Virus record (IMG/VR): IMGVR_UViG_3300044825_001149 | Span: 1-38,047 of that record | Length of the DNA stretch: 38,047 bases | Direction: 5' to 3' (one strand) | Origin: a virus | Shown: positions 1 through 38,047 of the stretch, one piece after another | Layout: every line of letters starts with the position of its first letter | Position numbering within the stretch: position 1 is the stretch's first letter | Translations under genes and position numbers: made by a program | Notes under the pieces: model-generated | What the model saw: the letters and a program-made list of their open reading frames with translations, nothing else | What the model was told of the DNA's origin: nothing | Databases searched by the model: none

Positions 1-127
1 GCTGACGCAACTTGCTCTCCAAAGACGACTGAAGGCCTGCACTCGCGGATGAGGCTAAACCAATGCGGCCATAGGTGGCGCTCATCGCCGTGGCCTTTTT
101 GCTTTCCCGCCGTACTGAATGGTTGGC
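1..127. repeat. Terminal direct repeat, left copy
   Basis: These 127 bases are repeated exactly at 37921-38047. They lie inside the methyltransferase gene and read through in frame, so they mark either a circular (or circularly permuted) genome or a terminally redundant molecule. A length of exactly 127 equals a common maximum assembler k-mer, so the repeat is more likely the overlap of a circular contig than a biological terminal repeat. That preference is inference. Confidence 0.95.
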
Positions 128-247
128 AGGGGCAACTTCCTGTCCAAACAGGTCTACAGTCTGGCCATCCTGCCATTCTGAGGGCAACGCTCCAGCCTCC
201 GATTCCGGCAAAGAAGTGGTACTGCGTAAATCCTTTGATATCGTCAC
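1..247 (-). CDS. Overlapping alternative-frame protein inside dcm, 5' part (WPTP/DLFGQ family)
   Basis: This frame is nested in dcm on the same strand, shifted in phase. It can start at GTG 247-245, preceded 5 nt upstream by a perfect Shine-Dalgarno GGAGGT (258-253) that has no reason to exist inside the methyltransferase gene. The frame is closed above by a stop at 262-260. The N-terminal part begins VTISKDLRSTTS and contains QTVDLFGQEVAP. From memory, phage proteins annotated only as hypothetical or 'DNA methyltransferase' carry the same opening and a DLFGQ block. I could not check this with a search. An internal ATG at 85-83 would give a 246-residue form. Function is unknown. A chance open frame remains possible but less likely given the ribosome site and family motifs. 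Confidence 0.6.
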   Translation of the reverse strand, partial: MTISKDLRSTTSLPESEAGALPSEWQDGQTVDLFGQEVAPANHSVRRESKKATAMSATYGRIGLASSASAGLQSSLESKLRQ

Positions 248-365
248 TTGAAACCTCCGTTATACTGCGCTCATCCACCTCGCCATCCGCAATCAAGCCA
301 TCCTTGATGAGTTGTCGCAGCATGTGGGCTGCTTCGGGCTTGAACTCGTTATAGTAAGCAGCCAC
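1..365 (-). CDS. dcm: DNA (cytosine-5-) methyltransferase, 5' part (continues at 37920)
   Basis: This is the N-terminal part of a 337-residue C5-cytosine methyltransferase whose gene crosses the contig join. Reading leftward from a GTG at 365-363, it shows the SAM-binding motif (HFFAGIGGW) and the catalytic motif IV PCQPFS with its nucleophilic cysteine. Motif VI (FGEQVAS) and the DLEAxGY block lie in the 127-base repeat and the right-hand piece. An upstream stop at 383-381 limits the start. The GTG follows GGGAGGG and lies one base after the TGA of the preceding gene (369-367), so translational coupling is likely. The enzyme transfers a methyl group to C5 of cytosine in DNA. In a phage this would plausibly protect against host restriction, but the target site cannot be read from sequence. 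A second frame starts inside it at 247. Confidence 0.93.
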   Translation of the reverse strand, partial: MAAYYNEFKPEAAHMLRQLIKDGLIADGEVDERSITEVSSDDIKGFTQYHFFAGIGGWSVALRMAGWPDCRPVWTGSCPCQPFSTAGKQKGHGDERHLWPHWFSLIRECRPSVVFGEQVAS

Positions 366-36962: not shown

Positions 36963-37275
36963 CGGTTCCTCCGTTGGTGGCTGCTAGGGCATCCTTAGCT
37001 ATACCATGAATAACTTTCAGCGGCTGCGCTATAGTGCCTTCATTTGTGTTTTTGATTTGTATCAGCGCCCGCTTCAATCGCTCTATCTCCGCATCTTTCT
37101 GCGCTGCGTGAGCGAGGGCGGCTTTTGCAATGGCGCGAACCAAATGTTCTGCATCTTCTCTGTCGCCATCTATACAGACGAACCCACCATCATATTTGAT
37201 ACATGCGTTTTCATCTTCCGAGTAATGCTTCACGGCTATTCCGTAAGGCAACGCCTCTCTACCCTTATCGCTCAT
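36952..37275 (-). CDS. Phage protein of unknown function downstream of dcm (107 aa)
   Basis: The N-terminal half is globular (LPYGIAVKHYSEDENACIKYDGGFVCIDGDREDAEHLVRAIA). A helical stretch follows (ALAHAAQKDAEIERLKRALIQI). The ATG overlaps the methyltransferase TGA by four bases, so it is translated together with dcm. The LPY opening echoes the small genes on the other side of dcm. Function unknown. Confidence 0.75.
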   Translation of the reverse strand: MSDKGREALPYGIAVKHYSEDENACIKYDGGFVCIDGDREDAEHLVRAIAKAALAHAAQKDAEIERLKRALIQIKNTNEGTIAQPLKVIHGIAKDALAATNGGTDDK

Positions 37276-38047
37276 TTGGGGACTCCTTCAGTTGCTTGGA
37301 TGAACTCGGCCGCGACTTGCGGAACGATTGCATTGCCGTAAGCATGGAGGAGTGATGCTCGGTGCTGTACCCCATGAGCCAGCAAACGAATTGAGGGTTC
37401 AACTGGCCTTGTTTTTCCGTCGGGGCATTCGAGCCATTCGACCCCTGCGCTATCATCGAAAGATTGACCTGTTTGCCCATCAAAACGCGCCGCTGAATAC
37501 TGGGATTTTCCCAGCGTCCCCTGTCCCTGTCGTCTGATGCATTCGGCGTTGGCCACATCGCCTGCGCCATATGCGCCAACTGGCTTCCGTGGTTCGGCCT
37601 CGACATCCAGCGAGCTGAATACTCCTGGGGGTTGCTGCTCCTGCTGGCGTTCACATCCCCGCAGTTCGGTGTTGGCCACATCGCTGTGTTGACTTGCTCC
37701 GCCAAGCTGCATGCTGTTACTTCCCGCCTGTCTCCCAACCGTTTCGCTGCTTGTCCTGCTGGTTCCGCCACTTCCCTCGCTCTCGGAGTTAGCCACAAAC
37801 CATAATCTGTTGCGTTTGTGCGGCCTGCCAACACTGCAAGCTGGCAATACTGCCGCAGCGCAGGCGTAACCTTTCGCTTCCAAGTCTGTGGCCACATCAT
37901 CCCACCAGCCGTAGGTAATTGCTGACGCAACTTGCTCTCCAAAGACGACTGAAGGCCTGCACTCGCGGATGAGGCTAAACCAATGCGGCCATAGGTGGCG
38001 CTCATCGCCGTGGCCTTTTTGCTTTCCCGCCGTACTGAATGGTTGGC
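37265..38047 (-). CDS. Overlapping alternative-frame protein inside dcm, 3' part
   Basis: This is the remainder of the 300-residue frame. It shows the block SSASAGLQSSLESKLRQQL, then TWKRKVTP, two copies of an MWPTPN motif (MWPTPNCGD and MWPTPNASD) and a C-terminal LNPQFVCWLMGY followed by AMQSFRKSR. These are recognisable features of a widespread phage protein family of unknown function. The MWPTPN motifs are the same bases that encode the VAN repeats of the methyltransferase. It ends with TAA at 37267-37265, seven bases past the dcm stop, overlapping the start of the next gene. No catalytic residues can be assigned. Confidence 0.6.
   Translation of the reverse strand, partial: ANHSVRRESKKATAMSATYGRIGLASSASAGLQSSLESKLRQQLPTAGGMMWPQTWKRKVTPALRQYCQLAVLAGRTNATDYGLWLTPRAREVAEPAGQAAKRLGDRREVTACSLAEQVNTAMWPTPNCGDVNASRSSNPQEYSARWMSRPNHGSQLAHMAQAMWPTPNASDDRDRGRWENPSIQRRVLMGKQVNLSMIAQGSNGSNAPTEKQGQLNPQFVCWLMGYSTEHHSSMLTAMQSFRKSRPSSSKQLKESPNER
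37272..38047 (-). CDS. dcm: DNA (cytosine-5-) methyltransferase, 3' part
   Basis: This is the C-terminal part of the same methyltransferase (bases 37921-38047 duplicate 1-127). Visible blocks are ACSVGRPHKRNRLWFVAN (motif VIII region), a divergent middle with three VAN repeats (VANSESEG, DVANTELRG, DVANAECIR), and a C-terminal motif X-like GNAIVPQVAAEFI. The TGA at 37274-37272 overlaps the ATG of the next gene (ATGA), so the genes are coupled. The VAN repeats are unusual: in the other frame of the same bases they read MWPTPN. Family assignment is certain. Recognition site and biological role are inference. Confidence 0.93.
   Translation of the reverse strand, partial: QPFSTAGKQKGHGDERHLWPHWFSLIRECRPSVVFGEQVASAITYGWWDDVATDLEAKGYACAAAVLPACSVGRPHKRNRLWFVANSESEGSGGTSRTSSETVGRQAGSNSMQLGGASQHSDVANTELRGCERQQEQQPPGVFSSLDVEAEPRKPVGAYGAGDVANAECIRRQGQGTLGKSQYSAARFDGQTGQSFDDSAGVEWLECPDGKTRPVEPSIRLLAHGVQHRASLLHAYGNAIVPQVAAEFIQATEGVPK
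37921..38047. repeat. Terminal direct repeat, right copy
   Basis: Exact second copy of bases 1-127. Joining 37920 to position 1 keeps both overlapping leftward reading frames of this locus open, which supports a circular map of 37,920 bp. Confidence 0.95.

Follow-up and report, generated by a model that had tools for sequence, protein, structure and literature searches.

C5-cytosine methyltransferases that are split over two polypeptides are already known. In M.EcoHK31I (YGGCCR), the large subunit holds motifs I to VIII, motif X, and the predicted recognition domain, and motif IX is on the smaller polypeptide (PMC3404938); the gene for the small subunit is reported to be nested within that for the large one, in a different reading frame (Lee et al. 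1995). The beta polypeptide of EcoHK31I is about 176 amino acids long. In M.AquI, an alpha/beta C5 methyltransferase, motifs IX and X are both found in the small subunit (PMC3404938). Multispecific C5 methyltransferases like those of phages SPbeta and phi3T carry variable, exchangeable recognition modules, in one chain.

The window analyzed here is a stretch of 38,047 nucleotides, the IMG/VR virus record IMGVR_UViG_3300044825_001149. In it, a methyltransferase frame (A) and a second frame (B) overlap on the same strand. The pair has the motif distribution of M.EcoHK31I, with motifs I to VIII and X on the larger polypeptide and motif IX on the smaller. It differs in that the recognition-like modules are in B, which rests on module homology and no biochemical data, and in that B is longer, at 300 amino acids. 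By analogy, from motif distribution and without a sequence comparison, we take M.EcoHK31I to be the nearest precedent and suggest that the pair may work like it; membership is not claimed. As in M.AquI, the catalytic part and the presumed recognition part of the window pair are on two different polypeptides, and some actinophage relatives (ArV1, L300-L329) hold modules, IX, and X together on a second open reading frame (ORF). However, motif X of the window is in A and not with IX in the small subunit, and an M.AquI-type assignment therefore fails. Single chains of actinophages, of the ShiLan gp70 type, share with the window pair its catalytic motifs, its (L/W)PTP modules, the IX block, and motif X, but all in one frame, and their second, +1 ORF, with an N-terminal extension and one or two modules, ends early. 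The SPbeta/phi3T enzymes offer a likeness by analogy, without a comparison of module homology, in that their modules are variable and exchangeable; there they are in one chain, unlike in the window. The two-subunit split itself has precedents; the pair described here is unusually widespread.

Layout of the overlapping frames

The genome resembles that of a podovirus and encodes a head-tail connector, a terminase, and a Prim-Pol primase. The two ends of the window share 127 identical bases (1-127 and 37921-38047), and the window therefore forms a 37,920-bp circle. The terminal repeat fits an assembly that is either circularly closed or circularly permuted, and the A/B pair spans the join. Both frames run leftward across the join from GTG starts, A from 365 to 37272 (337 amino acids) and B from 247 to 37265, with B in +1 relative to A and about 890 bases in common (Table 1).

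The sequence-only reading had described a dcm frame that almost completely contains a 300-codon frame across the join, and its coordinates, phases, and GTG were confirmed. Its range of 37265-38047 covers only the part to the right of the join; the pair also includes 1-365. The GGAGGT that it placed five bases before the GTG of B is there, and the blocks that it listed for B are all present, namely DLFGQ, SSASAGLQSSLESKLRQ, TWKRKVTP, two copies of MWPTPN, and LNPQFVCWLMGY. It was also correct that the bases of the two MWPTPN motifs are those that A reads as DVANTE and DVANAE.

Table 1. Positions of the features of the overlapping pair in the window
Feature	Position	Strand	Basis
Frame A (alpha, dcm-like C5 methyltransferase), right of join: end of catalytic region, VAN-repeat spacer, motif X, stop	37272..38047	-	ORF, profile matches
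Frame A, left of join: GTG start at 365	1..365	-	ORF
A, motif I FFAGIGG	195-215	-	Sequence
A, motif IV PCQPFS	114-131	-	Sequence
A, GEQV	3-20	-	Sequence
A, motif VIII-like region GRPHKRNRLWFVA	37791..37829	-	Sequence
A, motif X GNAIVPQ	37317..37337	-	Sequence; alignment to single-chain motif X
Frame B (beta, WPTP protein, phrog_1008), right of join: modules and motif IX-like block	37265..38047	-	ORF, profile match
Frame B, left of join: GTG start 245-247	1..247	-	ORF
B, DLFGQ	140-154	-	Sequence
B, SSASA..LRQ block	2-52	-	Sequence
Shine-Dalgarno-like GGAGGT 5' of B start	253..258	-	Sequence; start and Shine-Dalgarno survey in relatives
B, start of module 1, LWLTPR	37781..37798	-	Sequence
B, start of module 2, MWPTPNC; A reads DVANTE at 37665-37682	37661..37681	-	Sequence
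B, start of module 3, MWPTPNA; A reads DVANAE at 37542-37559	37538..37558	-	Sequence
B, motif IX-like block LNPQFVCWLMGY	37367..37402	-	Sequence, comparisons with relatives

Family assignment

Frame A matched phrog_363 (6.8e-76) in a profile search and PF00145 (1.2e-18) over profile positions 66-166. It carries C5-methyltransferase motifs I to VIII and X: motifs I, IV (PCQ), VI, and VIII are ordered in A as FFAGIGG, PCQPFS, GEQV, and HKRNRLWFVA, and its motif X (GNxxxP) aligns to that of the single chains. Motif IX is absent from A, and an IX-like block is present only in B. Because the A chain lacks this motif, we regard A as a catalytic subunit and not as a complete enzyme. Frame B matched phrog_1008 (9.6e-30, residues 13-293 on profile positions 20-298 of 329), and it matched no Pfam family and no PDB sequence. 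Both PHROG families are called DNA methyltransferase and are matched by A and B over most of their lengths, with no sign in the PHROG library that they are two frames of the same DNA.

Coupling of the two frames in relatives

At all 169 loci found with the B profile, drawn from viral contigs and bacterial genomes, an A ORF lay in relative frame +1, with a median overlap of 915 nt. No stand-alone WPTP family was found among these loci. At 162 of 167 loci B has an upstream start codon, and its Shine-Dalgarno matches are better than those at control positions. Conservation of the pair extends to phages that infect many hosts and to prophage-bearing bacteria, the bacterial genomes ranging from Proteobacteria to Planctomycetes; Acinetobacter ABMM1 and a Paenibacillus polymyxa plasmid have an arrangement like that of the window. 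In actinophage and Streptomyces relatives, the modules, IX, and X are on a separate ORF.

Both frames are open and under selection

In the window, as long an open +1 frame was obtained in only 4 of 2,000 shuffles of the synonymous codons of A, and the +2 frame was ordinary. Loci selected by A alone provide a fair test of the openness of B, and in 52 of 63 such loci a +1 frame this long arose in 5% or fewer of the codon-shuffled versions. The other 11 fail; some are truncated, some are G+C rich, where chance opening is common, and one (L051) is interrupted. The +1 frame is also open at low G+C, for example at 45% (L004). Across the region of motifs IV to VIII, a single stop was found in +1 versus 162 expected (minimum of 100 shuffles, 138; 144 dereplicated loci), and 3' of motif VIII there were no stops versus 207 expected (129 loci). 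The loci in these counts are phylogenetically nonindependent, and many were found through B.

Selection was assessed with 70 independent pairs. The N half of B gave a dNN/dNS of 0.67 (bootstrap interval, 0.62-0.73) and a dSN/dSS of 0.43 (0.37-0.50), and the C half gave 0.48 (0.41-0.56) and 0.35 (0.30-0.42), versus 0.84 and 0.79 in a control stretch before the B start. The ratios for A in the C half were 0.51 and 0.38. Relative to the stretch before the B start, there is purifying selection on both frames, each in both halves. Eleven Guernseyvirinae, compared with their own helicase gene, gave the same picture; the codon position that varies most in the C half is the first of A, which is the third of B, and in the helicase control it is the third.

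Frames A and B are thus two real genes on one stretch of DNA. Stop counts and selection ratios reject a chance opening of B, and they likewise reject a B family that is purely an annotation artifact. The sequence-only reading had left a choice between a long same-strand overlapping gene and a family created by misannotation. The first option held, with both frames conserved, open beyond expectation, and under purifying selection, and the second failed as an origin, although misannotation of individual records does occur in addition. Neither observation that would have refuted the overlap was made: WPTP proteins without a methyltransferase in the other frame are not usual, there being none among the 169 loci at which shared DNA was counted, and the second frame of homologous dcm genes is not full of stops but mostly open, as the 52 of 63 loci show. 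A third, constraint in one frame only, was excluded by the selection test. The proposed mutual explanation of the VAN repeats and the WPTP family was borne out as well, the repeats being the reading in frame A of the WPTP modules; the overlap explains both the orphan phage family phrog_1008 and the unusual VAN repeats found in this Dcm subfamily.

Modules and motif IX in single-chain relatives

Near its end, B has a motif IX-like block, with a variable array of (W/L)PTP modules in front of it. The same elements occur in one frame in Mycobacterium phage ShiLan gp70, which has PCQPFS, three LPTP modules, LAPAFSEWMMGWPAGW, and GNGVVPQQ. The modules, IX, and X are on a second ORF in Arthrobacter ArV1 and Streptomyces Samy. 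The IMG/VR set includes 16 single-chain loci and roughly two dozen in which +1 carries both IX and X. Profile comparisons divided the single chain between the two frames: the first part of A corresponds to the single-chain N half, the end of A to motif X, and B to the modules and IX. Specifically, A matched the N half of the single chains at 99.6% and only motif X in their C half, and the B HMM matched single chains down to 2.7e-14, confined to their C half (hhalign of B versus that half, 96.6%, 6.9e-10). The C half of B is homologous to this part of the single-chain enzymes, the modules and block IX.

Single chains, in frame 0, and split genes, in +1, contain similar modules, with 51 matches at E<=1e-6. 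This number is for the p1-p0 class only; the b2-p0 count was set aside as inflated, a single-chain locus (L315) having been labeled b2. Module 2 of the window is 82% identical to a module in another locus (L151). Twelve canonical C5 methyltransferases from host genomes had no IX-like block and almost no WPTP in +1, and that frame was ordinary and not open beyond expectation. In the same scan, two split genes had LNPxxxxWLMGxP (LNPQFVCWLMGFP and LNPAHSRWLMGLP), in +1 only.

In IMG/VR actinophage loci L284-L302, we observed a B-type N-terminal extension (SW+M.P.TGLWGSI..S.TWP..G......YELP) in +1 of single-chain methyltransferase genes. This extension, with one or two LPTP modules, stops before the remaining modules, which sit in frame 0. 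The N half of the +1 frame in six of these single-chain genes has 2 stops versus 12.6 expected. A simple split does not explain the extension and modules in +1 of these genes, and because they are retained there, neither the direction of evolution nor the question of frameshifting is settled.

Structure models and weak comparisons

The predicted model of a single chain matched M.HhaI along its whole length (residues 1-344; Z 21.8). In its module region (158-246), the pLDDT was below 50, and the fold of the modules is therefore unproven. A model built for B by itself (residues 41-300 of the window protein, 44 sequences) had a pLDDT of 60 and a pTM of 0.29, with nothing above Z 2.4 among PDB structures, and it was dropped for poor confidence and lack of a PDB match. 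An hhalign comparison of B with the 12 canonical host methyltransferases was not significant. The strongest hhalign match covered only 19 columns, which we count against the two-subunit reading. When B proteins were scored with a motif IX PSSM built on canonical enzymes, the top window was the LNP..WLMG site in 112 of 161, and the median score was near zero. The resemblance of B to motif IX of canonical enzymes is short and weak in score and is supportive only.

A split C5 methyltransferase is the likely reading

We consider it likely that A and B together form a two-subunit C5-cytosine methyltransferase in which B holds the recognition modules and motif IX. That B supplies these parts is the most likely role because actinophage relatives hold the catalytic domain, PTP modules, IX, and X in one M.HhaI-like chain. 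Assembly, activity, and specificity are inferred, and there are no expression, interaction, or methylation data. The sequence-only reading had given no function for B; the recognition and motif IX role is proposed here.

In this view, A would be the catalytic subunit, with motifs I to VIII, then a spacer, and then motif X, and the spacer with its VAN repeats would merely be an out-of-frame reading of the recognition modules of B. From its own GTG, B would be made as the partner, or specificity, subunit. Its N-terminal extension would overprint the catalytic motifs (IV to VIII) of A, and its variable (W/L)PTP array would provide target-recognition modules, followed by the motif IX-like block. 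The two are inferred to assemble into one active enzyme, which may protect phage DNA from host restriction. That the constrained N-terminal half of B binds A is possible but a guess.

A bolder reading could as easily be wrong as right. It holds that this is a large, overlooked class of methyltransferases whose modules are swapped between phages, in either frame, and that the N domain of the specificity subunit was born by overprinting its partner's catalytic core. If it were true, a same-strand overlap of about 900 bases would have been maintained across many bacterial phyla.

Alternative explanations

Programmed frameshifting could yield one composite chain, with the catalytic half of A, a +1 shift into the modules and IX, and a -1 shift back to X. 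The order of these parts in the DNA (catalytic domain, modules, IX, X) is that of single-chain relatives, and the frame of the late modules differs among relatives. However, two opposite shifts would be needed, the N half of B is stop-free and constrained although it lies 5' of any useful shift site, and B has the upstream start codons and Shine-Dalgarno matches given above. We judge this very unlikely, without an analysis of slippery sites, and leave it as a possibility.

It is also very unlikely that B is a genuine overprinted protein with another job, for example, anti-restriction or regulatory, outside the methyltransferase. The N-terminal half of B has no known homolog, and the B-only model had no fold match, but the C half of B corresponds to a segment of single-chain methyltransferases, including the motif IX block that A is missing.

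Finally, B might be no gene at all, its open frame and motifs passively echoing the conserved protein and GC-rich codon use of A, and N-half conservation may partly reflect the catalytic motifs of A, the N-half profile of B also matching +1 frames of six single-chain genes, but this is very unlikely given the near absence of stops in both halves, the open frame at low G+C, selection ratios well under the controls with bootstrap intervals, the lack of such a frame in canonical methyltransferases of host genomes, and the modules found in-frame in other enzymes.

Annotation and implications of a probable split enzyme

Few prokaryotic genes overlap on the same strand by some 900 bases, and standard annotation is inclined to drop one of the two. 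A tblastn search of phage records found B in 143 and A in 422. In 12 phage records that were fetched, the B frame was inside or almost inside A; some annotate A alone, some B alone, and K1ind2 both. Where B was annotated in the inspected records, it was called a hypothetical protein, DNA methyltransferase, or Mte8-like protein; PMC5582158 gives Mte8 as a bare name. Misannotation thus exists on top of a genuine overlap. We found no description of the A/B overlap in the open-access literature searched.

Under the two-subunit reading, many phage methyltransferases may be annotated as half an enzyme, and expressing the annotated ORF alone could therefore wrongly suggest an inactive gene. The pair offers a natural system to study selection on dual-coding DNA and, if confirmed, a system for interchangeable recognition modules.

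Rearranged loci and HNH-like stretches

In two loci (L048 and L067), the modules and the LNP..WLM block are now in frame A, and motif X stays behind in a different one. These are rearranged, damaged, or misassembled copies. In two others (L033 and L065), an HNH-endonuclease-like stretch (CEACGG..HHVDG..ENN..LCKHCHGFWH) lies in +1 between motifs IX and X, and A reads through it; the out-of-frame HNH insertion of PMC11855218 provides a comparison.
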